Assembly (NCBI GenBank): GCA_022829145.1
Contig: CM040742.1
Location: 4,339,658-4,403,657 of the forward strand
Source: Albula goreensis
Lineage: Eukaryota; Chordata; Actinopteri; Albuliformes; Albulidae
Reading direction: 5' to 3'
DNA length: 64,000 bases
The notes under the pieces are model-generated. The model searched no databases. It was given only the letters and a program-made list of their open reading frames with translations, and was not told where the DNA came from. The translations under genes were made by a program, and so were the position numbers. This document shows positions 1,747 to 63,291 of this stretch, in pieces; the first letter of the stretch is position 1; the number at the start of each line of letters is the position of its first letter.

Positions 1747-4700
1747 ATATCATTTCCTTTGAGTCTTTGATTTTATTTGGGACGAGCAAACATTCTGTTT
1801 GCAATAATATGATCCATTCAATCGTAAAAAGAACAGAATATTCCCTTAAAAGGATTGAGGTGTGTTTGATTGAATCTGCCCGGGTGACTCTGCGGCTCAG
1901 TAGGCCTCACCCCGTTAGAATGCAGTTAGCGCTGGCACCGTGCGGATCCAGATGCACGACCGCCCTCCTCGGAAGAGGACTCGTTTGGCGCATCTCGTTT
2001 TGCCGCACAGATGGCGAACAGACTCAGCGATGTCTGGATCAGCCATAACGATCGGCTCAGTAAACAGGGTAAATCATCCACAAGATTTGGAGATCAGCGA
2101 CTGGGCTCGGCATCTATGTAGTGAGGATTTGGAAGGGGTGGATGGGGCAAATGTGTCCTTCAAACTGTGAAAACGTGCAAAATGCAAAATAAGCTAGACT
2201 TAGCCTGCTGTCACATCCCCAGATCTGTGCAGACAGAAACGATTTAGAAAGATGTTAGAAAGATTCACTCCTCTAATCATTATGTCAAAAAAATCAGCTA
2301 AAAGCAAATAATTTCCATGAGCATGTACGGTTTATAAAAATAAAAAAAGAATAAATTGAAATTTAAAAACTATTTCACCAATATGTCTAAAATTAGATTT
2401 GCAAACAGCATAATTTTTCGATTACACGGCAGGAGTGGTCTAATAAATGGTTTTTAAATGTCATCACAACGTTATCACATTTTCTCACGCTTGCTACGAG
2501 AAAAAAAATGATTCCTCAATTAATTATATTTAAGTATGTTATAATCTATTGGAGACAAGCAAACTTGTTCTTCAGAGTTCATGTTAGTTCATACCCTTAG
2601 AAAAAAAACTAAAGTCTATTTTGATTAAATTGCATTAACTTCCCTAAGAGAGATGAAGTGTATATATAGTGATTGAATCTAGACCAAGGTCCCTCTCTGT
2701 TTCTGTCTCTTATTCCATGTCACCCACACTCAGAGAATCTCAGAGAATGGCTAGCCAGGACAGCCTGTGAGACAGACACAAACAAAAACAAAAACATAAA
2801 CACGGTCTGCCCACTCGGACTCCTCGTCCCCTCTGCCAGATTCCTTTGGTGATCACAGACATGCTGAATGGGACCAGAGCCTATCAGCATTCACTGGGCC
2901 AATAAATTCAAATTTAATTTCATGACATTGCTGTCTTTGTGTTGCTCCACATTCAACAGCCCGGTCTGCTCCAGTGTCATGCACCCATGCAGGATTGTGT
3001 TTACAAAACAAAAACAGCAGCAAAATAAACTAGTAACCTGCACCAAACATAATCCATAAGCATTTCCGACGGCCACCCTGGCTGTGTAATATGTTGACAT
3101 TTGCCAGGGTGTACAGTGGTCAAAGAATGTGCACTGAGACCAGATTTCCTGTGGTAATGAAATCTACTGGATTTTAAATGAATGAACTGCTGCAGGTTTT
3201 CTAATGAGGAAGTTGAAATTTCTGGCGTTATGTATTTATGAAATCATCGAGCTATACACCCAAGTCCAAATATTCTACATCCATTTTTGTTCCTTTTCAT
3301 TCATGGTGCCAATAATTCTGCAATTGGCTGAGAACGTATTATTATTATTACTATCCATTTAAATACTAAACATGTTAAAATGCACAATTTCACCATGTTT
3401 TAAATAAATATAACATACTGTGAAATGGGAGATGGTTCTGTGACGGAGCTGCAAGCCCGTTACCGAGAGTCACCGATAATTGTACAATATACGGACAATG
3501 TACAAAACCGTTTCATGTTCACAACCGCTGTTTTATAAATCACAACCGCAATTAGCCGGTAGAAGCCGACAAGCCGGTTTATATGCGTATCCGGACGCGG
3601 TAGAATGGGTGCCACATAAAGAAAGTTTCCAAAAACAACTGTTGTACCTTTACATCCACTGTTACCGTGGCCAACTAATGGGGAGGTGAAGCATTTTTAC
3701 CGTCAACAGCTTAGTTAAGCATTTTTTCCCTTTGTTTTAAATGTTTTAATGCAACAGATGATAACAATAGGAAGCAGCAAGAGCTTACCGCACGTCTGTC
3801 TGGTTACTGGGCAGGTAATTGGGTTCCAGGTGAGCAGAAGCCGCGTACTGGTGGCGTAATTGTATTTGTAAGGTGGAAAACGCGAGATGGACTATTGCAG
3901 TTTGTGGAATCTTGATAAAATGTCTAATTATAAATGTGTATCGAGCAGGAAAGGGGGGATGATTGTTAAAACGTAATTAATTGTATAACTGAAAGGTTGT
4001 TTATGCGCATTATGGATGAAACATGTATAAAATCGGAATACTTTGAATCATATAGTAAATGAAATGCGTTGGTTTCTCCCGGGCAGGGGAAGGTATTTAA
4101 CGGACTCCTCATCATTAATTTGGTTGTTGGTTGGCTGTAAAATGGGCTGTTGAGACTCGGTGTTGTTTCAGCCGTAGAGTAGTTGGGTATCGTTGAAACC
4201 CAGCATAAATAGGTTTATGTTTATATATTTTATTTCCCTTCTGTGAAGTTTTTTCCCTTTACTTGAGTTTATTTTTTGTTACTGAAGCACCTGCACTGTA
4301 TTTAGACCTCACCTGCACCTACACATCTGGGACCAATAAACACCCCATAGCACACATTTTTGTTCATCTGGCTCAACTTTTTGTACTTGCTGCTATGGGC
4401 ATCCCTTCACAGGTTCATTAGCCTTTTGTTATGCTTTGTTCCAAAAGCGAACCGGAGGATGATTTTCTTGGGTTTTCTTTACAGTAATTAAATGCATCCG
4501 TTTTAATTGTTTGTTTTGTCATTTCAGTACTCTGATGTGATGTGAACAACGCCTCGACACGGCAGACGATTGAAAGAGATGGGATTACCTGTCAATTGGC
4601 TGGGCATTTCAGATAATTGACATGCGTGTTAATTAAGTTAAACTAATGGAAAGAGGTTTGGAGCAATGATCGGTTTGAATGCCAGATCTCAGCCCCTATT

Positions 4701-6954
4701 TGGAGCGAAGGAGCTGCCACTGATTCGCATGCATTTGTTGTACGTGGAAAAGGGGAACCGCCATGGCTAGGACCCAAACAAACAGACCTAGTCTCTACTG
4801 GGATGCATGCAATGCAATGAGAACTCAGCATTTTCAATTTCATTAGAGACAAGCAGACGTTCTTTGGATTCTACAATAGCAAAGTGTATTTCCTAAAAAA
4901 GACTGTATTGATTGAATTTCATGCATGCTTAAAGACACCAGGTTCATTTGATTGGGTCCCAGCCTAAGTATGCAAAGGTGCGAGAGTGAATATCTATGTC
5001 TCTATGTGTATATATCTATGTGTCTGTACATATGTTTTCATGTACACCAATATGAATACCTGAGTGTGTATATCCGTGTCTCAGTACATGTAAGAGGTTG
5101 TATAGTGGCTGTGTGCATGAGCTTGGGTGAAAGCTAATATCGACGCGCAGTATTTGAGTGCGTGTGAGTGGATGCCTACGTAGAGTCTGCATGCGGACGT
5201 GTGCAGCTCAACTTGAGAGGGTGCATTAGCACGAGTGCACATGAGCTGTAAGGCAGCGCGTCGGAGGCCCCGGCGTCGGCTGTGTGTCAGCTGTGCGTCA
5301 CTCAGTTTCTCATCTGTCAGCCCCATTGTGTCTATCTCGGCGTGTCGGGGCTCTGTTGAACTCAGGGGTCGTGCTGTCATGCTCTTCCTCCGGGCCGGAC
5401 CGCGTCAGAGGCGGGGGTACATGTGAGAGAGAGGTGACTTTGCGTTGTGACCCAGATCCCTTCTAACCGCCGGGGCACGGGGCGCGAAGCTCTGGGCGGG
5501 GGGGGCTTCACGAAGCTTCATGAACATCGTACTGACCCGACTTAACAAACGCTGTCAGTCTCTGATTCAGATGCCTGAATCGTGTTGCTTGTCACATGTC
5601 ACATGCCACATGTCACATGACCCCTAGGAGGGACAGGATAGGTAGGCACATGGACATGTGATTGATTTGGTTTTGAGGCAAATTCTTCTTGGGTTTTTGG
5701 TAAGCAAAAAAAAAATAAACTGGGCAAATTAGAACATAGTACATTTAAAACAAAAAAAAAAAATACGAATACATAATACGTAAAAATAAACATTCCCCTG
5801 CCTGGACCTGAACAGTCTACTGTGATTTCTGTTTTTCTTTCTCGGCTCTCGTTTTCTATAGGGCGAGTGACACAATTGTTACCTCACCAATGTCAAATAC
5901 CCAGTAATAGAAAGTGTTAGACCAGCTCCTGGATGCATAGCTGGACAGTGACTAGCTTAGCCTATATTATTTATTAATGTCTTCGTTAAAGATGTTCTAT
6001 AACCATGGAAGAGTGTGTCACTGCTTGAGCTACTGCTTCCCGTCTCTCTGCAGCGCGTCAACTGATTGGAACAGGCATTGCACCAGGGAAGTATGTGGAA
6101 TGTCCTACTGCTGCAAGCAAACTGCAGTTCCCAACCTGACCAGTGGGGTCACTGTTGCGCAAGGGCCATCATGAGGACTGAAACCCCAAATTGGGTATGA
6201 CAGCTCAGATAACTCTGTTTCATGCCAAGGCGTACGCTGTCATTTTTCAGGTACACATCGACCATGACTTAGCTGGCCCAACTACCTGGCCCAACAAGGC
6301 CACCATCTTTTAAAACACTTGTTGGGTGCTTTTAAGGCTAAATCGTATTTCTATTTCGTCTCTGTCTTGTAGGTAGGCGGGTTGGGGTTGGTTGTCGAGC
6401 AAAAGCAGCTGCACTAGTTTCCACGAAAAAAGGAGAACATCAGAAAAACACCTGCCCAAGAATGACCTGCTAAAGAATGTAGAGATCAGACATATAAACA
6501 TCCAAATATATCTAGCCACAAGAGTTCACCACTGGAATTTTATTTTTTATGTATTTATTTATTTTTTTACAGTGCTTGACTTCCCTAGTGGCAGCGATAA
6601 AAAGGTCCAGTGGCTGAGTCTCCCTGTATGACAGTCCTTCACCCTTTTAAGTTTCCTGTTTACACTGGCCTTATGGTCGCTCCTGCCGCTCCGTCACCGT
6701 GACGCTGTAATTATACCGCTCTCCCACATGCATTCTCTGGTTCTCCTGCCCCAAACAGCTAACAAACTGCACAAATGAGAGGGACTTTGCCACTGCTGTC
6801 AGGCCCCATATGGCATGAGGGGGGGCTTACTGGAGACATGGGGGGGGGGGCGGAGCTGAAGGGATGAGCACGGAATGGCTGTCAATCAGGGGTGCTGGTT
6901 CCGGCACAGCGCTCCGCGGCACAGCTGTCAGGTACACACACGAGCAGCGTGGCG
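1747..6954. other. Intergenic DNA, no gene recognised
   Basis: Mostly AT-rich unique sequence. A GC-rich, CpG-containing patch lies at about 5220-5520, but I see no start codon plus splice donor combination there that I would defend. A small imperfect tandem repeat of a CACATGT-type unit lies at 5590-5620. Poly-A and poly-T runs lie near 5706, 5750 and 6540. The frames at 5081-5466 overlap on both strands in the GC-rich patch and have no recognisable domain. Confidence 0.55.
5590..5620. repeat. Short GTCACAT tandem repeat
   Basis: Four near-identical 7-10 bp units of the type GTCACAT/GCCACAT occur in succession. It is a minor simple repeat with no further function visible. Confidence 0.6.
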
Positions 6955-15715: not shown

Positions 15716-16766
15716 TACATTGCTCTTTGAACTTTCCTTGATGACTGAAAAGTAACACAAAGCATGGAACTTCTCTGAATAGATTAAATACATATATACA
15801 TGCAATCATAATTTGGGCAATGTGAACCTTTTCAATTTCCTGTCATAGATAAATAAAGAAAATGTGTCCGTTAACTGACAATTTGGCATTATTCATCATG
15901 ATCCTCTGAACTTCATACTTAGTATATTACGTATTTATATATGTGTGCCATAAAATCATTGTGTATAGGGAAGAATGTCAAAATGACTACTGAAGGCCGA
16001 TTAAAGTGCAACTCAAGCTGTACTCCACTACAAGGCAAGTGTGCTTCAAAACTTAATTACTGCATTCAGATTACGAAGCTGCAGAGGTAGTTTGCCAAGC
16101 AACTAAAGGCTATTTAGAAGGCCTTTGGTTGCGCGAGAAAACACATCCGAAGAGGCCACAGGTGATTACGGGTCCTGCTGGGTCAATGCAACCAGGACCA
16201 AGAGATCGGCTTCAGGGTCTATTGTGCAATCTTAACAACCTGTGTAATTTATCATTCATTAGAAACAGCTGTGCTGTTCCAAAACAGGTCAATATTTACA
16301 AGGCAAGTAATGGGTGCTCTGGGGACCACTTAAACTACCCAAATAGCTTGGTCACTGTTGGCTCTCATCTTATCTGCTTTTGTATGAAGTACAATGGCTA
16401 CTTAAGCTTTTTCACTGCTTTTTGGGGCTACATTGCATCTTTTCTGAACTCTGTCACAGAAATCTGTTGAAAGTGTGTGCCTTGATAGCGTAATTCATGC
16501 CACATGCACACACGCCGACATACCTGCACAAGCTGAACAAAGCGGTCTGCCGAATCGCGTTCATCCATTGCACCTGCTCCAAATGTCTGCTACACGCACG
16601 CGCGCGCGAAACACAAACACGCTCATGATGTGGTCCGTGTTCAGACAAACTTCAGATCACGGATGGAACTACGCAATCGCAACGGCAGATGTTATATTTT
16701 ATATGGAGAAGGTGATCTTCCAATATATACAGCACTATTATAGTGGCCCCTCAACAGTATGGTGCA
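15716..16766. other. Intergenic DNA, no gene recognised
   Basis: Unique AT-rich sequence. A 113-codon frame (16129-16470, plus) shows no recognisable domain, and no splice or promoter context supports it. A short ACGCACGCGCGCGCG run lies near 16593. Confidence 0.5.
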
Positions 16767-16946
16767 TCACCAGCCGCATTGATCCCTGACTCCAGCACTT
16801 TTGCGCAAGGTCAGAGGGGCAGAGCCCAGATCAAAGAGCAGGCAGAAAGGGAAGGAACTCCTCCGCTTGCTCTAGTCTGAAATCGAACCCCGATGGTATG
16901 AGACCCAGAGCGCTCCAACAGCTGTTTCACCAGCTCGCATTGATCC
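16767..16946 (-). mobile_element. tRNA-like insertion flanked by direct repeats
   Basis: TCACCAGCCGCATTGATCC (16767-16785) and TCACCAGCTCGCATTGATCC (16927-16946) differ by one inserted base and flank about 141 bp. On the minus strand the enclosed segment contains GGAGCGCTCTGGGTCTCAT and then GGGGTTCGATTTC. This resembles the D-arm/anticodon and B-box parts of a compressed tRNA(Met)-like head. It is probably a SINE or tRNA retro-insertion. The A-box is poor, so a plain chance duplication remains possible. Confidence 0.4.
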
Positions 16947-29399: not shown

Positions 29400-29918
29400 G
29401 TGTGTGTCTGCTTGTCTGTGTATGTGCATGTTTGTAATTATGTGTGTGTGTGAGAAACACTAGCAACTTATATGAATGGATAGGCGTGTGCATCTGTGTG
29501 TGTTAGTGAGTGGTATGCATTTGTGTGTATGTTCTTACATGTATGTCTTTGTTTGCATAAGCATGTGTTTCTTGTGTGTGTATATAGGTGTGTGAGCATA
29601 AGTGTGTGTCTCTTGTGTGTATAGGTGTGTGTCTGCATAAGCGTGCCTCTCTTGTGTGTATATAGGTGTGTGTGTGTACATGTGTTATGTGTGTGTGTGT
29701 ATGTTCTTACATGTATATCTTTGTTTGCATAAGTGTGTGTCTCTTGTGTGTGTGTATAGGTGTGTGTGTGTGTGTGTCCGCATAAGTGTGTGTCTCTTGT
29801 GTGTGTGTATAGGTGTGCGTGCATAAGTGTGTGTCTCGTGTGTGTGTATAGGTGTGTGTGTGTGTGTGTGCATAGGCGTGTGTCTCTTGTGTGTGTGTGT
29901 ATAGGTGTGTGTGCATAG
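29400..29918. repeat. GT-rich minisatellite with about 40-50 bp units
   Basis: A GT-rich block in which CATAAG(T/C)GTGTGTCTCTTGTGTGTGTATAGGTGTGTGTG-like units recur about eight times with variable GT lengths. A larger duplication is visible: the 33 bp at 29529-29561 (ATGTTCTTACATGTATGTCT...) recur at 29701-29733 with one mismatch, an offset of 172 bp. The His/Thr-rich minus-strand frames are translations of this repeat. Confidence 0.9.
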
Positions 29919-49300: not shown

Positions 49301-50278
49301 GAAGCGTCGCCTCTGTGCTCATTCTCTCATCTTTTTCCTTGGTCAAACATGCAAGCTATGTGAGTACAGTCAAGCTCGTACATAAACAGCTGTGTGTAGG
49401 CTACCAAAAATCTTGATCAACCTCCAAAAGCTCTATTATTCAGAGCCAAAAATTACGAATGCATTACACAGGTATATGAAAATGACTAGTCCATGCAATT
49501 TCATATGAGCAGTCTCCAAAAAACAGTTCAATTATGTCACAGAGTTGCATTTTCCTACATGTGCAGCTCTCGTTATGTATTTTTTTCTCTTTCCCCTTGC
49601 TCCCGGCTCCCTCCCGGAGCTGTGGTCAAAAAAGTATTCCAGATTGGCTTTGGATTCCCCTGCGTGTTCAGCTCTTCAGCTGTTTCATCTCAGATGCTGG
49701 GCGTACCTGCCAGGTGTACTGACCAGACCTTTCACACCTCATATATTCTGTTGCTATACTCATCAACTGCCTGGTGCTAGTCAGAAGCACTCTGGATTCT
49801 GCTCAAAAAGAGTTTCTTCCCGATAGCTTGGAAGTCATTAACAAATAATTGTATTTATTATGAATAATACTGTCAAGACTTAAATGAGCGTTTCCCCTTG
49901 GTAAGACATTTCCTTACCTCTCTTCTGTCCACATGAACAAGGATCACTTTATTTTGCCCTGTGCTCTACATGAATGTAATCTTGTACAAGTCCATTTGGG
50001 CCTCATCCAACTTTCCAAATTCACTTGTATGAATTTCATTGAACAACCTGGAAAATGTATGTCTCACACATAATATGAATGCCATTGACAAGGACCTTTA
50101 AAATATGATTTTTCAGCTAAGCTGCTGAAGGTGCACAGTTTGCAGACAGTGATGTAATCATGAAGATGACCTAAATATTCTTTGAACAGTAGTTACAAAG
50201 TCTTAACCAGAGAGCAAAATATTTCCCCAAAATTCGTTTATCACATTTTTCTATCATATACAATAAAACTTGAGCTTG
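46330..50278. other. Intergenic DNA, no gene recognised
   Basis: AT-rich unique sequence. The 129-codon minus-strand frame at 47220-47609 is the longest outside repeats, but shows no domain, signal or splice context I recognise. A (TAA)n-like patch lies near 48325. The patch at 49190-49330 is more GC-rich, with no assignable exon. Confidence 0.5.
47956..47992. repeat. Perfect 15-bp hairpin
   Basis: CAATGAAAAGGAAGT and ACTTCCTTTTCATTG are perfect reverse complements around a 7-nt loop GTGAGAG. The stem contains an ETS-like GGAA core on each arm. No terminator or RNA gene context. Confidence 0.85.
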
Positions 50279-53200
50279 TCAAATGTTTCTAAGGAGAGTA
50301 AATGAGAAAAGTGAACTCCACCAGAAATCAGGAAAAAGCATAAGACTATAGCCTTACATCAAAAATTGAAAAAACTGGATTGCCACCAAAATTTCTCAGT
50401 TTTCCACTGAATATGATAGAAAACCATGTCCATTCACTGCCCAGGCTACCAAGAGTCATCAGAAATGTTTCTTTGCAGAGGAAATGGGAAAAGTGTAGTT
50501 CCCCAGAAATCAGGAAAAAGCATAAGACTATAACCTTACCTCAATAATTGAAAAACTGGATTGCCACCAAAATTTCTCAGTTTTCCACTGAATATGATAG
50601 AAAACCATGTCCATTCACTGCCAGGGTACCAAAAGAGTCATCAGAAATGTTTCTTTGCAGAGGAAATGGGAAAAGTGTAGTTCCCCAGAAATCAAGAAAA
50701 AGCATAAGACTATAGCCTTACCTCAAAAATAAAAAAAATTGGATTGCCACCAAAATTTCTCAGTTTTCCACTGAATATGATAGAAAACCATGTCCATTCA
50801 CTGCCCAGGGTACCAAGAGACATCAGAAATGTTTCTGAGAGAGAAAATGGGAAAAGTGTAGTTCCCAGAAATCAGGAAAAAGCATAAGACTATAGCCTTA
50901 CCTCAAAATTATAAAAAATTGGATTGCCACCAAAATTTCTCAGTTTTCCACTGAATATGATCAGAAAACCATGTCCATTCACTGCCCAGGTTACCAAGTC
51001 ATCAGAAATGTTTCTGAGGAGAGAAAATGGGAAAAGTGTAGTTCCTCAGAAATCCAGAAAAAATTTCTCAGTTTTCATAAGACTATAGCCTTACCTCAAA
51101 AATTGAAACAATTGGATTGCCACCAAAATTTCTCAGTTTTCCACTGAATATGATTGAAAACCATGTCCATTCACTGCCCAGCATACCAAGAGTCATCAGA
51201 AATGTTTCTTTGCAGAGAAAATGGGAAAAGTGTAGTTCCCCAGAAATCAGGAAAAAGCATAAGACTATAGCCTTACCTCAAAATTGTAAAAAATTGGATT
51301 GCCACCAAAATTTCTCAGTTTTCCACTGAATATGTCAGAAAACCATGTCCATTCACTGCCCAGGAACAAGACACATCAGAAAGGTTTCTGAGAGAGAAAA
51401 TGGGAAAGTGTAGTTCCTCAGAAACCAGAAAAAAGCATAAGACTATAGCCTTACCTCAAAAATTGAACAAATTTGATTGCCACCAAAATTTCTCAGTTTT
51501 CCATTGAATATGACAGAAAACCATGTCCAGTCACTGCCCAGGGTACCAAGAGTCATCAGAAATGTTTCTGAGGAGAGAAAATGGGAAAAGTGTAGTTCCC
51601 AGAAATCAGGAAAAAGCATAAGACTATAGCCTTACCTCAAAAATTGAAAAAATTGGATTGCCACCAAAATTTCTCAGTTTTCCACTGAATATGACAGAAA
51701 ACCATGTCCATTCACTGCCCAGGGTACCAAGAGACATCAGAAATGTTTCTGAGGAAAGAAAATGGGAAAAGTGTAGTTCCCCAGAAATCAGGAAAAAGCA
51801 TAAGACTATAGCCTTACCTCAAAAATTGAAAAAATTGGATTGCCACCAAAATTTCTCAGTTTTCCACTGAATATGATAGAAAACCATGTCCATTCACTGC
51901 CCAGGAGACCAAGAGTCATCAGAAATGTTTCTGAGGAGAGAAAATGGGAAAAGTGTAGTTCCCCAGAAATCAGGAAAAAGCATAAGACTATAACTTACCT
52001 CAAAATTGAAAAATTGGATTGCCACCAAAATTTCTCAGTTTTCCACTGAATATGATAGAAAACCATGTCCATTCACTGCCCAGGGTACCAAAAAGTCATC
52101 AGAAATGTTTCTGAGGAGAGAAAATGGGAAAAGTGTAGTTCCCAGAAATCAGGAAAAAGCATAAGACTATAGCCTTACCTCAAAAATTGAAACAATTGGA
52201 TTGCCACCAAAATTTCTCAGTTTTCCACTGAATATGATAGAAAACCATGTCCATTCACTGCCCAAGGACCAAGAGTCATCAGAAATGTTTCTTTGCAGAG
52301 AAAATGGGAAAAGTGTAGTTCCCCAGAAATCAGGAAAAAGCATAAGACTATAGCCTTACCTCAAAAATTGAAAAAATTGGATTGCCACCAAAATTTCTCA
52401 GTTTTCAACTGAATATGATAGAAAACCATGTCCATTCACTGCCCAGGGTACCAAGAGTCATCAGAAATGTTTTTGATGAGAGTAAATGGGAAAAGTCTAG
52501 TTCCCCAGAAATCAGGAAAAAGCATAAGACTATAGCCTTACCTCAAAAACTGAAAAAAATGGATTGCCACCAAAATGTCTCAGTTTTCCACTGAATATGA
52601 TGGAAGACCATGTCCATTCACTGCCCAGGGTATCAAAAGACATCAGAAATGTTTCTTTGCAGAGAAAATGGGAAAAGTGTAGTTCCCCAGAAATCAGGAA
52701 AAAGCATAAGACTATAGCCTTACCTCAAAATTGAAAAAAATTGGATTGCCACCAAAATTTCTCAGTTTTCCACTGAATATGATAGAAAACCATGTCCATT
52801 CACTGCCCAGGGTACCAAGAGTCATCAGAAATGTTTCTGAGGAGAGAAAATGGGAAAAGTGTAGTTCTCCAGAAATTAGGAAAAAGCATAAGACTATAGC
52901 CTTACCTCAAAAATTGAAACAATTGGATTGCCACCAAAATTTCTCAGTTTCCACTGAATATGATGAAAACCATGTCCATTCACTGCCCAGAATATCAAAA
53001 GTCATCAGAAATGTTTCTTTGCAGAGAAAATGGGAAAAGTGTAGTTCCCCAGAATCAGGAAAAAGCATAAGACTATAGCCTTACCTCAAAATTGAAAAAT
53101 TGGATTGCCACCAAAATTTCTCAGTTTTCAACTGAATATGAGAGAAAACCATGTCCATTCACAGCCCAGGGTACCAAGAGTCATCAGAAATGTTTTTGAT

Positions 53201-56200
53201 GGGAAAAAATGGGAAAAGTGTAGTTCCCCAGAAACCAGGAAAAAGCATAAGACTATAGCCTTACCTCAAAAATTGAACAAATTTGATTGCCACCAAAATT
53301 TCTCAGTTTTCCACAGAATATGATAGAAAACCATGTCCATTCACTGCCCAGGGTACCAAAGAGTCATCAGAAATGTTTCTTTGGAGAGAAAATGGGAAAA
53401 GTGTAGTTCCCAGAAATCAGGAAAAAGCATAAGACTATAGCCTTACCTCAAAATTGAAAAAATTGGATTGCCACCAAAATTTCTCAGTTTTCCACTGAAT
53501 ATCATGGAAGACCATGTCCATTCACTGCCCAGAATATCAAAAGACATCAGAAATGTTTCTTTGCAGAGAAAATGGGAAAAGTGTAGTTCCCCAGAAATCA
53601 GGAAAAAGCATAAGACTATAGCCTTACCTCAAAATTGTAAAAAATTGGATTGCCACCAAAATTTCTCAGTTTTCCACTGAATATGACAGAAACCATGTCC
53701 ATTCACTGCCCAGGGTACAAAGAGTCATCAGAAATGTTTCTGATGAAGAAAATGGGAAAAGTGTAGTTCCCCAGAAATCAGGAAAAAGCATAAGACTATA
53801 GCCTTACCTCAAAAATTGAAAAATTGGATTGCCACCAAAATTTCTCAGTTTTCCACTGAATATGATAGAAAACCATGTCCATTCACTGCCCAGGATACCA
53901 AGAGTCATCAGAAATGTTTCTTTGCAGAGAAAATGGGAAAAGTGTAGTTCCCCAGAAATCAGGAAAAAGCATAAGACTATAGCCTTACCTCAAAATTGAA
54001 AAATTGGATTGCCACCAAAATTTCTCAGTTTTCCACTGAATATGACAGAAAACCATGTCCATTCACTGCCCAGGATACCAAGAGTCATCAGAAATGTTTC
54101 TTTGCAGAGAAAATGGGAAAAGTGTAGTTCCCAGAAATCAGGAAAAAGCATAAGACTATAGCCTTACCTCAAAAATTGAAAAAATTGGATTGCCACCAAA
54201 ATTTCTCAGTTTTCCACTGAATATGATAGAAAACCATGTCCATTCACTGCCCAGGATACCAAGAGTCATCAGAAATGTTTCTGAGGAGAGAAAATGGGAA
54301 AAGTGTAGTTCTCCAGAAATCAGGAAAAAGCATAAGACTATAGCCTTACCTCAAAAATTGAAAAATTGGATTGCCACCAAAATTTCTCAGTTTTCCACTG
54401 AATATGATAGAAAACCATGTCCATTCACTGCCCAGTGACCAAGAGTCATCAGAAATGTTTCTGAGGAGAGAAAATGGGAAAAGTGTAGTTCTCCCAGAAA
54501 TCAGGGAAAAAGCATAAGACTATAGCCTTACCTCAAAAATTGAAACAATTGGATTGCCACCAAAATTTCTCAGTTTCCCACTGAATATGATGGAAGACCA
54601 TGTCCATTCACTGCCCAGAATATCAAAAGACATCAGAAATGTTTCTTTGCAGAGAAAATGGGAAAAGTGTAGTTCCCCAGGAATCAGGAAAAAGCATAAG
54701 ACTATAGCCTTACCTCAAAAATTGAAAAAATTGGATTGCCACCAAAATTTCCCAGTTTTCAACTGAATATCAGAGAAAACCATGTCCATTCACAGCCCAG
54801 GGTACCAAGAGTCATCAGATATGTTTTTGATGGGAGTAAATGGGAAAAGTGTAGTTCCCCAGAAACCAGGAAAAAGCTTAAGACTATAGCCTTACCTCAA
54901 AAATTGAACAAATTTGATTGCCACCAAAATTTATAATTTTTCCATTGAATATGGCAGAAAACCACGTCCAGTCACTGCCCAGGATACCAAGAGTCATCAG
55001 AAATGTTTTTGATGAGAGTAAATGGGAAAAGTGTAGTTCCCCAGAAATCAGGAAAAAGCATAAGACTATAGCCTTACCTCAAAAATTGAAAAAATTGGAT
55101 TGCCACCAAAATTTCTCAGTTTTCCACTGAATATGATAGAAAACCATGTCCATTCACTGCCCAGAATACCAAGAGACATCAGAAATGTTTCTGAGGAGAG
55201 AAAATGGGAAAAGTGTAGTTCCCCAGAAATCAGGAAAAAGCATAAGACTATAGCCTTACCTCAAAAATTGAAAAAAATTGGATTGCCACCAAAATTTCTC
55301 AGTTTTCCACTGAATATGATAGAAGACCATGTCCATTCACTACCCAGAATACAAAGAGTCATCAGAAATGTTTCTTTGCAGAGAAAATGGGAAAAGTGTA
55401 GTTCCCCAGAAATCAGGAAAAAGCATAAGACTATAGCCTTACCTCAAAAATTGAAAAATTGGATTGCCACCGAAAATTTCTCAGTTTTCCACTGAATATG
55501 ATAGAAAACCATGTCCATTCACTGCCCAGGGTACCAAGGGTCATCAGAAATGTTTCTTTGCAGAGAAAATGGGAAAAGTGTAGTTCCCCAGAAATCAGGA
55601 AAAAGCATAAGACTATAACCTTACCTCAAAAATTGAAAAAACTGGATTGCCACCAAAATTTCTCAGTTTTCCACTGAATATGATAGAAAACCATGTCCAT
55701 TCACTGCCCAGGCTACCAAGAGTCATCAGAAATGTTTCTTTGCAGAGAAAATGGGAAAAGTGTAGTTCCCCAGAAATCAAGAAAAAGCATAAGACTATAG
55801 CCTTACCTCAAAAATAAAAAAATTGGATTGCCACCAAAATTTCTCAGTTTTCCCACTGAATATGACAAAAAACCATGTCCATTCACTGCCCAGGTTACCA
55901 AGACACATCAGAAATGTTTCTGAGGAGAGAAAATGGGAAAAGTGTAGTTCCCCAGAAATCAGGAAAAGCATAAGACTATAGCCTTACCTCAAAAATGTAA
56001 AAATTGGATTGCCACCAAAATTTCTCAGTTTTCCACTGAATATGATAGAAAACCATGTCCATTCACTGCCCAGGGTACCAAGAGTCATCAGAAATGTTTC
56101 TGAGGAGAGAAAATGGGAAAAGTGTAGTTCCTCAGAAATCAGGAAAAAGCATAAGACTATAGCCTTACCTCAAAAATTGAAAAATTGGATTGCCACCAAA

Positions 56201-57429
56201 ATTTCTCAGTTTTCCACTGAATATGATAGAAAACCATGTCCATTCACTGCCCAGGGTACAGAGGGTAATCAGAAATGTTTCTTTGCAGAGAAAATTGGAA
56301 AATTGTAGTTCCCCAGAAATCAGGAAAAAGCATAAGACTATAGCCTTACCTCAAAATTGAAAAAAATTGGATTGCCACCAAAATTTCTCAGTTTTCCACT
56401 GAATATGATAGAAAACCATGTCCATTCACTGCCCAGGCTACCAAGAGTCATCAGAAATGTTTCTGAGGAGAGAAAATGGGAAAAGTGTAGTTCCCCAGAA
56501 ATCAAGAAAAAGCATAAGACTATAGCCTTACCTCAAAAATTAAAAAATTGGATTGCCACCAAAATTTCTCAGTTTTCCACTGAATATGATAGAAAACCAT
56601 GTCCATTCACTGCCCAGGAGACCAAGAGTCATCAGAAATGTTTCTTTGGAGAGAAAATGGGAAAAGTGTAGTTCCTCAGAAATCAGGAAAAAGCATAAGA
56701 CTATAGCCTTACCTCAAAAATTGAAACAATTGGATTGCCACCAAAATTTCTCAGTTTCCCACTGAATATGACAGAAGACCATGTCCATTCACTGCCCAGA
56801 ATATCAAAAGACATCAGAAATGTTTCTTTGCAGAGAAAATGGGAAAAGTGTAGTTCCCCAGAAATCAGGAAAAAGCATAAGACTATAGCCTTACCTCAAA
56901 AATTGAAAAAAATTGGATTGCCACCAAAATTTCTCAGTTTCCCACTGAATATGACAGAAGACCATGTCCATTCACTGCCCAGGGTGCAAAGAGACATCAG
57001 AAATGTTTCTGAGGAAAGAAAATGGGAAAAGTGTAGTTCCCCAGAAATCAGGAAAAAGCATAAGACTATAGCCTTACCTCAAAAATTGAAAAAAATTGGA
57101 TTGCCACCAAAATTTCTCAGTTTTCCACTGAATGTGAAAGAAAACCATGTCCATTCATTGCCCAGGAGACCTAGAGTCATCAGAAATGTTTCTGAGGAGA
57201 GAAAATGGGAAAAGTGTAGTTCCTCAGAAATCAGGGAAAATAGCCTTACCTCAAAAATTGAAAAAAATGGATTGACACCAAAATTTCTCAGTTGTCCACA
57301 GAATATGACAGAAAACCATGTCCATTCACTGCCCAGGGTACCAAGAGACATCAGCAATGTCTCTGAGGAGAGAAAATGGGAAAAGTGTAGTTCTCCAGAA
57401 ATCAGGAAAAAGCATAAGACTATACCCTT

Positions 57430-59780
57430 ACCTCAAAAATTGAAAAAATTGGATTGCCACCAAAATATCTCACGTTTCCACTAAATATGATAGTAAACCA
57501 TGTCCATTCACTGCCCAGGATACCTAGAGTCATCACAAATGTTTCTTTGCTGAGAAAATGGGAAAAGTGTAGTTCCCTAGAATCAGGAAAAAGCATAAGA
57601 CTATAGCCTTACCTCAAAAATTGAAAAATTGGATTGCCACCAAAATTTCTCAGTTTTCCACTGAATATGATAGAAAACCATGTCCATTCACTGCCCAGGG
57701 TACCAAGAGTCATCAGAAATGTTTCTTTGCAGAAAAATGGAAAAGTGTAGTTCCCAGAAATCAGGAAAAGCATAAGACTATAGCCTTACCTCAAAAATTG
57801 AAAAAAATTGGATTGCCACCAAAATTTCTCAGTTTTCCACTGAATATGATAGAAAACCATGTCCATTCACTGCCCAGGTTACCAAGAGTCATCAGAAATG
57901 TTTCTGAGGAGAGAAAATGGGAAAAGTGTAGTTCCCCAGAAATCAGGAAAAAGCATAAGACTATAGCCTTACCTCAAAAATTGAAAAAATTGGATTGCCA
58001 CCAAAATTTCTCAGTTTTCCATTGAATATGACAGAAAACCATGTCCAGTCACTGCCCAGGGTAACAGGAGTCATCAGAAATGTTTCTGAAGAGAGGAAAT
58101 GGGAAAAGTGTAGTTCCCCAGAAATCAGGAAAAAGCATAAGACTATAGCCTTACCTCAAAAATTAAACGAATTTGATTGCCACCAAAATTTCTCAGTTTT
58201 CCATTTAATATGATAGAAGACCATGTCCAGTCACTGCCCAGGATACCAAGAGTCATCAGAAATGTTTCTGAGGAGAGGAAATGGGAAAAGTGTAGTTCCT
58301 CAGAAATCAGGAAAAAGCATAAGACTATAGCCTTACCTCAAAAATTGAAACAATTGGATTGCCACCGAAATTTCTCAGTTTTCCACTGAATATGATAGAA
58401 AACCATGTCCATTCACTGCCCAAGCGACCAAGGGTCATCAGAAATGTTTCTTTGCAGAGAAAATTGGAAAAGTGTAGTTCCCCAGAAATCAGGAAAAAGC
58501 ATAAGACTATAACCTTACCTCAAAAATAAACAAAAAAATTGGATTGCCACAAAAATGTCTCAGTTTTCCACTGAATATGATAGAAAACCATGTCCATTCA
58601 CTGCCCAGGCTACCAAGAGTCATCAGAAATGTTTCTTTGCAGAGAAAATGGGAAAAGTGTAGTTCTCCAGAAATCAGGAAAAAGCATAAGACTATAGCCT
58701 TACCTCAAAATTAAAAAAATTGGATTGCCACCAAAATTTCTCAGTTTTCCACTGAATATGATAGAAAACCATGTCCATTCACTGCCCAGGGTACCAAGAG
58801 ACATCAGAAATGTTTCTGAGGAGAGAAAATGGGAAAAGTGTAGTTCCCCAGAAATCAGGAAAAAGCATAAGACTATAGCCTTACCTCAAAAATGAAAAAA
58901 TTGGATTGCCACCAAAATTTCTCAGTTTTCCACTGAATATGATAGAAAACCATGTCCATTCACTGCCCAGGTTACAAGACACATCAGAAATGTTTCTGAG
59001 GAGAGAAAATGGGAAAAGTGTAGTTCCCCAGAAATCAGGAAAAAGCATAAGACTATAGCCTTACCTCAAAAATTGAAAAAAAATTGGATTGCCACCAAAA
59101 TTTCTCAGTTTTCCACTGAATATGACAGAAAACCATGTCCATTCACTGCCCAGGGTGCAAGAGACATCAGAAATGTTTCTGAGGAAAGAAAATGGGAAAA
59201 GTGTAGTTCCCCAGAAATCAGGAAAAAGCATGAGACTATTGCCTTACCTCAAAATTATAAAAATTGGATTGCCACCAAAATTTCTCAGTTTTCCACTGAA
59301 TATGATAGAAAACCATGTCCATTCACTGCCCAGGGTACCAAGAGTCATCAGAAATGTTTCTGAGGAGAGAAAATGGGAAAAGTGTAGTTCCCCAAAATCA
59401 GGAAAAAGCATAAGACTATAGCCTTACCTCAAAAATTGAATAAATTTGATTGCCACCAAAATTTCTCAGTTTTCCATTTTAATATGATAGAAAACCATGT
59501 CCATTCACTGCCCAGGGTACCAAGAGACATCAGAAATGTTTCTGAGGAGAGAAAATGGGAAAAAGTATAGTTCCCCAGAAATCAGGAAAAAGCAAAAGAC
59601 TAAAGCCTAATCTCAAAAATTGAAAAATTGGATTGCCACCAAAATTTCTCAGTTTTCCATTGAATATGACAGAAAACCATGTCCATTCACTGCCCAGGGT
59701 ACCAAGAGTCATCAGAAATGTTTCTGAGGAGAGAAAATGGGAAAAGTGTAGTTCCCCAGAAATCAGGAAAAAGCATAAGA
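57430..59780 (+). repeat. Higher-order repeat block, copy 1
   Basis: About 13 consecutive units share private variants, in the same order, with units about 2823 bp downstream. Examples are CACTAAATATGATAGTAAACC, the AAAATAAACAAAAAAATTGG linker (58527 versus 61349), GCATGAGACTATTGCC, GAATAAATTTGATTGCC and AAGCCTAATCTC. This shows a segmental duplication inside the array. Confidence 0.8.
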
Positions 59781-59815
59781 CTATAGCCTTACCTCAAAAA
59801 TTAAACAAATTTGTT

Positions 59816-60250
59816 TGCCAAAAATTTCTCAGTTTTCCACTGAATATGATAGAAAACCATGTCCATTCAGGAGAGAAAATGGGAAAAGTGCCCAGGGAAA
59901 ATAGCCTTACCTCAAAATTGAAACAATTGTCATCAAAATGTTTCTGCCCAGAATATCAAAAGACAGAGAAAAATGGGAAAAGTGTAGTTCCCAGAAATCA
60001 GGAAAAAGCATAAGACTATAGCCTTACCTCAAAAATTGAAAAAATTGGATTGCCACCAAAATTTCTCAGTTTTCACTGAATATGACAGAAAAAATGGGAA
60101 AAGTGTAGTTCCATGTCCATTCACTGTTTTCCACAGGGTATTCAAGGAGACCTAGAGTCATCAGAAATGTTTCTTTGGAGAGAAAATGGGAAAAGTGTAG
60201 TTCCTCCAGAAATCAGGAAAAAGCATAAGACTATACAGAATATGACCTGT
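59816..60250 (+). repeat. Scrambled satellite segment
   Basis: Pieces of the unit occur out of order: CCATTCAGGAGAGAAAATGGG joins two distant parts of a unit; CAGGGAAAATAGCCTTACC lacks the AAGCATAAGACT section; GTCATCAAAATGTTTCTGCCCAG is a fusion; and CAGAATATGACCTGTACCTC replaces the usual TATAGCCTTACCTC. It looks like template switching at short homologies, or an assembly error. Confidence 0.75.
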
Positions 60251-60254
60251 ACCT

Positions 60255-62600
60255 CAAAATTGAAAAAAAAATTGGATTGCCACCAAAATTTCTCAGTTTT
60301 CCACTAAATATGATAGTAAACCATGTCCATTCACTGCCCAGGATACCTAGAGTCATCACAAATGTTTCTTTGCTGAGAAAATGGGAAAAGTGTAGTTCCC
60401 TAGAATCCAGGAAAAAGCATAAGACTATAGCCTTACCTCAAAAATTTTAAAAATTGGATTGCCACCAAAATTTCTCAGTTTTCCACTGAATATGATAGAA
60501 AACCATGTCCATTCACTGCCCAGGGTACCAAGAGACATCAGAAATGTTTCTTTGCAGAAAAAATGGGAAAAGTGTAGTTCCACAGAAATCAGGAAAAAGC
60601 ATAAGACTATAGCCTTACCTCAAAAATTGAAAAAATTGGATTGCCACCAAAATTTCTCAGTTTCCCACTGAATATGTCAGAAAACCATGTCCATTCACTG
60701 CCCAGGTTACCAAGACATCAGAAATGTTTCTTTGAGAGAAAATGGGAAAAGTGTAGTTCCCCAGAAACCAGGAAAAAGCATAAGACTATAGCCTTACCTC
60801 AAAAATTGAAAAAAATTGGATTGCCACCAAAATTTCTCAGTTTTCCATTGAATATGACAGAAAACCATATCCAGTCACTGCCCAGGGTAACAGAGTCATC
60901 AGAAATGTTTCTTTGAGAGAAATGGGAAAAGTGTAGTTCCCCAGAAATCAGGAAAAAGCATAAGACTATAGCCTTACCTCAAAATTAAAAAAATTTGATT
61001 GCCACCAAAATTTCTCAGTTTTCCATTGAATATGATAGAAGACCATGTCCAGTCACTGCCCAGGATACCAAGAGTCATCAGAAATGTTTCTGAGGAGAGG
61101 AAATGGGAAAAGTGTAGTTCCTCAGAAATCAGGAAAAAGCATAAGACTACAGCATTACCTCAAAAATTGAAACAATTGGATTGCCACCGAAATTTCTCAG
61201 TTTTCCACTGAATATGATAGAAAACCATGTCCATTCACTGCCCAAGCGACCAAGGGTCATCAGAAATGTTTCTGAGGAGAGAAAATTGGAAAAGTGTAGT
61301 TCCCCAGAAATCAGGAAAAAGCATAAGACTATAACCTTACCTCAAAAATAAACAAAAAAATTGGATTGCCACAAAAATGTCTCAGTTTTCCACTTAATAT
61401 GATAGAAAACCATGTCCATTCACTGCCCAGGCTACCAAGAGTCATCAGAAATGTTTCTTTGCAGAGGAAATGGGAAAAGTGTAGTTCTCCAGAAATCAGG
61501 AAAAAGCATAAGACTATAGCCTTACCTCAAAACTATAAAAAATTGGATTGCCACCAAAATGTCTCAGTTTTCCACTGAATGTGATAGAAAACCATGTCCA
61601 TTCACTGCCCAGGGTACCAAGAGACATCAGAAATGTTTCTGAGGAGAGAAAATGGGAAAAGTGCAGTTCCCCAGAAATCAGGAAAAAGCATAAGACTATA
61701 GCCTTACCTCAAAAATGTAAAAATTGGATTGCCACCAAAATTTCTCAGTTTTCCACTGAATATGTCAGAAAACCATGTCCATTCACTGCCCAGGTTACCA
61801 AGACACATCAGAAAGGTTTCTGAGGAGAGAAAATGGGAAAAGTGTAGTTCCCCAGAAACCAGAAAAAAGCATAAGACTACAGCCTTACCTCAAAAATTGA
61901 AAAAAATTGGATTGCCACCAAAATTTCTCAGTTTTCCACTGAATATGACAGAAGACCATGTCCATTCACTGCCCAGGGTGCAAAGAGACATCAGAAATGT
62001 TTCTGAGGAAAGAAAATGGGAAAAGTGTAGTTCCCCAGAAATCAGGAAAAAGCATGAGAGTATTGCCTTACCTCAAAATTATAAAAAATTGGATTGCCAC
62101 CAAAATTTCTCAGTTTTCCACTGAATGTGATAGAAAACCATGTCCATTCACTGCCAAGGGTACCAAGAGTCATCAGAAATGTTTCTGAGGAGAGGAAATG
62201 GGAAAAGTGTAGTTCCCCAAAAATCAGGAAAAAGCATAAGACTATAGCCTTACCTCAAAAATTGAATAAATTTGATTGCCACCAAAATTTCTCAGTTTTC
62301 CATTTTATATGATAGAAAACCAGGTCCAGTCACTGCCCAGGGTACCAAGAGACATCAGAAATGTTTCTGAGGAGAGAAAATGGGAAAAAGTATAGTTCCC
62401 CAGAAATCAGGAAAAAGCAAAAGACTAAAGCCTAATCTCAAAAATTGAAAAATTGGATTGCCACCAAAATTTCTCAGTTTTTAATTGAATACGACAGAAA
62501 ACCATGTCCATTCACTGCACAGGGTATCAAGAGTCATCAGAAATGTTTCTGAGGAAAGAAAATGGGAAAAGTGTAGTTCCCCAGAAATCAGGAAAAAGCA
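60255..62600 (+). repeat. Higher-order repeat block, copy 2
   Basis: Partner of 57430-59780. The offset stays at 2822-2826 bp for about 13 landmarks (for example 58178/61000, 58360/61182, 58545/61367, 59090/61913, 59451/62277). Similarity of private variants stops after the AAGCCTAATCTC unit. Confidence 0.8.
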
Positions 62601-63291
62601 TAAGACTATAGCCTTACCTCAAAAATTGAAAAAATTGGATTGCCACCGAAATTTCTCAGTTTTCCACTGAATATGATAGCAAACCATGTGCATTCACTGC
62701 CCGGGATACCAAGAGACATCAGAAATGTTTCTGAGGAGAGAAGATGGGAAAAGTGTAGTTCCCCAGAAATCAGAAAAAGCATAAGACTATAGCCTTACCT
62801 CAAAAATTGAATAAATTTGATTGCCACGAAAATTTCTCAGTTTTCCATTTTATATGATAGAAAACCATGTCCATTCACTGCACAGGGTATCAAGAGACAT
62901 CAGAAATGTTTCTGAGGAGAGAAAATGGGAAAAGTGTAGTTCCCCAGAAATCAGGAAAAAGCATAAGACTATAGCCTTACCTCAAAAATTGAAAAAATTG
63001 GATTGCCACCAAAATATCTCACTTTTCCATTTAATATGATAGAAGACCATGTCCAGTCACTGCCCAGGATACCAAGAGTCATCAGAAATGTTTCTTTGCA
63101 GAGAAAATGGGAAAAGTGTAGTTCTCCAGAAATCAGGAAAAAGCATAAGAATGTAGCCTTACCTCAAAAATTGAAAAAATTGGATTGCCACCAAAATTTC
63201 TCAGTTTTATGATAGAAAACCATGTCCACTCACTGCCCAGGAGACCTAGAGTCATCAGAAATGTTTCTGAGGAGAGAAGATGGGAAAAGTT

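Follow-up and report, generated by a model that had tools for sequence, protein, structure and literature searches.

The tandem array at positions 50281..63290 of the 64,000-nucleotide stretch analysed here (the window; C2:4339658-4403657 in a 932-Mb assembly of 208 contigs) very probably belongs to a dispersed, transposon-associated satellite with a unit of about 182 bp, in which a splice-like grammar on the minus strand is a by-product and the window's clade carries a good acceptor that is absent from several sisters. The family forms tandem arrays on several chromosomes and also occurs as fragments in a repeat that contains the remains of a hAT transposase. The pattern is real and slightly surprising, and the object is of an ordinary kind.

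The array comprises about 71 units, mostly of 182 bp, delineated by TRF (periods 182 and 364), by a unit alignment and by own-genome family matches, and its unit sense is the minus strand. On that strand we counted 70 exon starts and 70 donors, and a looser search returned 71 donor boxes. The unit alignment holds 68 units of length 160-240, with one stretch of 364 left out; 62 of these 68 units measure 179-185 bp and the remainder 171-229 bp, with a mode of 182 bp (26/68). The units run head-to-tail with a mean pairwise identity of 91% within the array, and block similarity places them slightly closer to each other at a lag of 15/16 (mean difference of 13.3/14.4 versus about 15.5 at other lags). 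Three rearranged units of 195, 229 and 220 bp (59724..60367, minus strand) consist of scrambled segments, with fragments of other unit parts copied in. Read in the minus sense, the upstream edge of the array (63245..63290, minus strand) starts within a pyrimidine tract (CTTTTCCCATCTTCTCTCCTCAG) and is preceded by a flank reading TTTTAAC, which we take to be branch-point-like by its consensus. The downstream edge (50281..50300, minus strand) reads CTCCTTAG|AAACATTT, beyond which the sequence bears no likeness to the unit. Elsewhere in the window, an imperfect GT-rich minisatellite occupies positions 29542-29917, where overlapping TRF rows have periods from 23 to 92.

The minus strand of the array presents a predicted exon followed by a short spacer in almost regular alternation. 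The donor-like GAGGTAAGG (GAG|GTAAGG) is exact in 66 of the 70 units, as at 52354..52362 (minus strand), where its last six bases start the near-palindrome TAAGGCTATAGTCTTA. This 9-mer matches the window 67 times, never on the plus strand, versus 0.24 expected; 66 of them fall in the array and one lies at 49912-49920, on the same strand and about 370 nt beyond the last acceptor. A diverged unit at this outlying site was considered and rejected (alignment score of 15.5 versus a mean of 12.3 and a maximum of 19.5 for shuffles, and no nhmmer match). A weak local similarity to the unit was also observed at 16200-16800, with a score of 29 that is the highest of 502 flank windows and goes unreported by nhmmer.

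Scored with donor and acceptor matrices, the consensus donor ranks within the top 0.14% of 5769 flanking GTs; the main acceptor falls within the top 0.15% of 6031 flanking AGs, and its GCAAAG counterpart only within the top 9%. Acceptors are strong (score of at least 9) in 38/70 units and weak with AG present in 29/70 (2.9-7.3, corresponding to the top 4-18% of flanking AGs), and 3/70 lack the AG (4/69 by a second count). The two main kinds in the window are CCTCAG (33/69) and GCAAAG (23/69), and CATCAA, without AG, accounts for 4/69. The predicted exon is 113 nt long in 33/68 cases and 111-114 nt in 62/68, the spacer is 69 nt in 46/67, and a CTGAT lies near the expected branch position in 57 of 68 units. 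These counts bear out the anatomy described in an earlier note on this DNA, which had reported about 71 units with a donor, an acceptor, a spacer and a CTGAT on the minus strand.

The same note had suggested scoring the splice sites against shuffled units, and the pair proved better than chance. The null model was one circular unit, flank 182-mers overlapped with a step of 10, and pairs were accepted on either strand at plausible spacing. An equally good donor-acceptor pair was found in 0/4982 flank 182-mers and 8/20000 dinucleotide shuffles, figures that apply to a pair chosen post hoc and that count as one event, not seventy, since the 70 units come from one ancestral unit. At looser thresholds of 9 and 9, a pair was present in 61/4982 flank 182-mers and 153/20000 shuffles. 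The donor-acceptor pair is unusual, and chance explains it poorly unless its post hoc choice is allowed for. The near-palindromes TAAGGCTATAGTCTTA and TCAGAAACATTTCTGA, which overlap the donor and the acceptor, are only mildly unusual, 93 of 830 flank 182-mers holding at least one of such grade.

The unit has at least 118 scored matches on at least 14 contigs among the best candidates, and a 27-base donor-box word returned 1898 genome matches at no more than 3 mismatches, the window's included, versus 0 for a reversed control. Among the matches listed, 28 places on 13 contigs each lie 0.6-8.7 Mb from a contig end and no more than 27% of the length in, a distribution that perhaps reflects a subterminal or pericentromeric habit. 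As befits a satellite family, the units stand head-to-tail at high identity, occupy many genomic loci and show no coding constraint, although each strand has a long frame that outdoes most or all of the shuffled unit orders. Words of the unit sequence did not occur in the papers searched, IMG/VR held no match to the unit, and no satellite of this design was found in the titles and abstract openings of the literature.

Sister arrays in one genome separate accident from function better than does conservation within one homogenised array. We compared 16 unit sets from fetched places, in which the boxes were located by likeness to the box (at least 14/22), a procedure that itself accounts for part of the box conservation. 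Five sets lack the acceptor AG, namely those on C18 (0/7), C13 (0/2), C20 (0/14), C8 (0/2) and C5 at 36.78 Mb (0/3), the C13, C8 and C5 counts being small samples, and 27 of these 28 AG-less units read TTGG. It is present in the window (65/69) and in the sets from C2 at 5.30 Mb (28/29), C23 (5/5), C19 (3/3), C15 (7/7), element-left (7/7), L021 (4/4) and the hAT-segment pieces (6/6), and is mixed in those from C2 at 5.74 Mb (3/4), C12 (2/4) and L022 (1/4). Strong acceptors (score of at least 8) are few in some AG-bearing sets (1/7 in C15 and 0/7 in element-left). The donor varies as well, since C20 has the GT in 3/15 units only (lost in 12/15); in that array the palindrome is invariant at 14 of its 16 columns, with the other two standing at 0.80 and 0.67, and the GT-to-AT change raises palindrome pairing from 7 to 8 of 9. 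Splice sites are not kept among related copies, as seen from the 28 AG-less units and the C20 GT loss, though they are kept in the window's clade. The sister arrays contradict a family-wide, conserved splicing function.

Among 12 lineage strings, conservation over 16 columns peaks in the AAATACACTTTTCCC stretch (0.89), followed by the columns from the right arm of the box onward (0.88); a garbled C23 majority string entered these counts but none of the conclusions. In a tree of 52 units from which the acceptor columns had been removed (12 window rows, and one row each for C13, C8 and C5), AG units fall mainly in two well supported clades (27 rows, 100/98; 11 rows, 100/100) with the TTGG lineages between them, in a topology whose bootstrap is unsettled and which has no outgroup. 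Four units within the AG clades are devoid of AG, and the tree calls for no fewer than 6 state changes. Two gains of the AG would be simpler than about five losses, neither gain nor loss being proven.

Variation within the array gives no clear sign of selection on the splice sites. Acceptor positions -6..-3 form the most variable 4-mer of the unit, with a mean substitution of 0.34 versus 0.047 for the exon, and by conservation the donor 9-mer comes no higher than 31 of 182. Positions 177, 179 and 180 of the acceptor covary (r2 of 0.72 and 0.94 with position 179), the other variable positions (30 in all) never exceed an r2 of 0.08 with position 179, and the acceptor allele varies almost independently of neighbouring variants. 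Over all position pairs, r2 stands at 0.13 for those no more than 2 bp apart and drops to 0.02-0.04 for those more than 10 bp apart. This short linkage between variants could reflect frequent short-tract exchange or assembly mis-polishing.

We interpret the array as one site of a dispersed satellite family whose arrays probably expand and become uniform through unequal exchange and short-tract conversion between units, as suggested by the similarity at a lag of 15-16 and by linkage that is lost over some 10 bp. The splice-like grammar would most likely be a by-product of two circumstances: the near-palindrome TAAGGCTATAGTCTTA, which is found in most lineages examined, shares its left arm with the donor word GGTAAG, and the window's clade has TCAG in place of the TTGG of several sister lineages, beside a pre-existing pyrimidine-rich stretch. 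A minus-strand transcript across the array, if any, might be opportunistically spliced, with nothing in the sequence indicating such splicing or selection for it. Several observations run against the by-product view: only 8/20000 shuffles reach the pair, the window's clade largely keeps both sites, the only further GAGGTAAGG in the window shares that strand and sits some 370 nt beyond the array, and the 124-aa frame of the concatemer beats all 200 shuffled unit orders. The palindrome account is itself weak, as the box search is biased to the box and the palindrome is not the most conserved stretch across lineages. Our results also divide the interpretation put forward in the earlier note: the splice-like signals are real, beyond chance and could serve if the minus strand were transcribed, whereas a conserved role is not supported, the AG being absent in five arrays.

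The association with a transposon rests on a repeat of more than 6.5 kb, common to ten fetched places, that contains fragments of the unit. Copies are 85-99% identical over their larger pieces, and L010-L013 and L016, in their longest alignments, match the L009 copy at 94-96% identity. The repeat encodes a hAT dimerisation domain above cut-off (PF05699, E 2.7e-5) and terminates in a long minisatellite. In L009, unit positions 1-100 lie at 3932-4031 and positions 86-182 plus 1-126 at 4764-4991, and an acceptor region was located by eye at about 5283-5313. The middle piece includes a 20-bp direct repeat whose copies are 184 bp apart (4782 and 4966), and this pair recurs, with no more than 2 mismatches and a distance of 183-184 bp, in 6 of 8 other copies checked. 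The window outside the array has no match to L009 at E 1e-10. The interval L009:5316-9900 holds the long minisatellite, of CCCCAGTGTTTAACC type, adjoining the hAT remains, and also a reverse-transcriptase-like fragment slightly below cut-off (PF00078, 29.3 versus 29.6 bits).

It is possible, if doubtful, that the unit is a former part of a hAT-type transposon, for example of its 3' side, which later underwent satellite expansion, an origin that is compatible with our preferred explanation. The position of the unit pieces downstream of the hAT dimerisation domain, in a repeat common to ten places, is consistent with such a history, and the 20-bp direct repeat with its 184-bp separation would have supplied a ready seed for tandem growth. 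However, lineages that are 66-74% alike to the window's form arrays elsewhere, so that the element may instead have captured fragments of an older satellite, and the search of the hAT-bearing repeat did not turn up the element's ends. A model of insertion in which arrays have their edges at the donor (AG|GTAAG in L018, L030 and L034) was set aside as not firm, since local alignments tend to stop at conserved boxes.

We consider it unlikely that the array is a spliced non-coding RNA gene, whose minus strand would be transcribed and whose units would be joined as repeated exons in the manner of Firre or of the SNORD116 host transcript. Such a gene would agree with the exact donor in 66/70 units, the strong acceptor in 38/70 and the branch-like CTGAT in 57/68, with the joint chance of the pair (8/20000) and with the branch-like TTTTAAC that precedes the first acceptor. 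It is at odds with an acceptor that is weak or missing in 32/70 units and is the most variable place of the unit, with the missing AG in five related arrays, and with two further negative results. Spliced array RNA that is copied back into the genome should leave exon-exon words, and the junction words of the window type and of the C15 type each have 0 matches in 932 Mb; among the unspliced words, which are of the window type only, the donor side (27 bases) has 1898 matches and the acceptor side (35 bases) 146. The absence of a retrocopy trace carries little weight, since the array could be inactive in germ-line cells. Rfam returned no match at gathering score within the window, the one match at 51700-52500 having an E of 0.32 and 16.1 bits versus 60. 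A snoRNA within the unit was also rejected: TGATGA and CTGA words, presumably snoRNA-type motifs, occur, yet one TGATGA position is T in 22/68 units.

A bolder version, to which we give little credence, can be drawn from the sequence. In it, a young satellite clade with a full splice pair, made of a palindrome-embedded donor and a new acceptor, would turn its arrays into cassettes that each supply tens of cryptic exons; splicing of minus-strand transcripts would yield variable concatemers, in which the inclusion of each unit would depend on its acceptor allele (CCTCAG/GCAAAG).

The conclusion that the repeat is not a protein array is supported by its reading frames. Exon lengths modulo 3 are distributed 36/16/16, so the frame is not kept, and in the frame that is open in 41/68 exons variation is lowest at the third codon position, which is the opposite of protein constraint. 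The earlier note had judged a repeat protein less likely than a non-coding transcript or a decayed exon array and had stated that consensus exon joining meets a stop at once; both statements agree with our data, as exon lengths are off-frame, codon-type constraint is lacking and the open frame of joined consensus exons reads GAG AAA CAT TTC TGA. The longest frame of the spliced concatemer, at 124 aa, is longer than that of any of 200 shuffled unit orders (maximum of 123, mean of 84), and the longest plus-strand open frame (56699..57484, 261 aa), which spans several units, exceeds the 95% point (241) of 200 unit-order shuffles. The eight weak Pfam matches of this 261-aa frame are all below cut-off and were taken as chance, and the frame was rejected as a protein, its best match being Hus1 (E 6e-5, 22.7 bits versus a cut-off of 27). 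A protein on either strand was likewise rejected, the frame being interrupted in most units and codon positions being free of constraint. Pfam gave no match above cut-off in ten window frames, including the 261-aa frame and one unspliced minus-strand frame, and two of the 113 flanking frames searched (of 278 listed) had single matches, at E of about 0.002, to unrelated families.

Least probable is the decayed exon-duplication array entertained in the earlier note, in which one exon and a short intron of a protein gene were amplified: the frame open in 41/68 exon copies, the 124-aa concatemer frame that surpasses all 200 shuffled orders and the exon-intron geometry would fit it, but its simple form is hard to hold against a repeat that is genome-wide (at least 14 contigs among the best candidates, 1898 box words), off-frame exon lengths with no third-position excess, and Pfam searches with nothing above cut-off in ten window frames and just the two unrelated matches among 113 flanking frames.

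Our analysis suggests that near-consensus splice grammar can arise in satellite DNA with no selection behind it. If splicing were true, the array would offer a natural example of a multi-exon transcript made from a satellite, and even on this strong reading a known principle would merely have taken an unusual substrate, with precedents in Firre, IPW-A and the EBV W repeat. The Firre local repeat RRD overlaps 7/13 human and 11/23 mouse exons (PMC4820808), and the array resembles it as a local repeat coinciding with many exons, here predicted, of one RNA. The Firre repeats are described as discontinuous, expressed and largely confined to their locus (PMC4820808), unlike the present array, which is continuous and belongs to a widespread family. 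SNORD116/IPW-A consists of tandemly repeated non-coding exons with introns (PMC9369261, PMC4742849), a layout of tandem non-coding exon plus intron that is predicted here too; its introns host snoRNAs and the array is expressed, whereas the window has no Rfam match at gathering score. In EBV internal repeat 1, each unit has a small intron separating exons W1 and W2, which are used in variable numbers (PMC5834210). The predicted exon and small intron of each unit are similar in plan, and the W exons differ from the array in being proven, coding and provided with a promoter in each unit (PMC5834210).

The closest likeness is to dispersed transposon-associated satellites, for which two reports describe scattered tandem arrays, links to transposons and palindromes or inverted repeats within monomers (PMC12628747; Crassostrea satellitome, PMC8268682). 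Tandem monomers, scattered arrays, a transposon link and near-palindromes all recur here. The link is to a hAT-bearing repeat in our case and to Helitrons in the passages seen of PMC12628747, and, unlike those satellites, the window's clade carries a full donor-acceptor pair on one strand.
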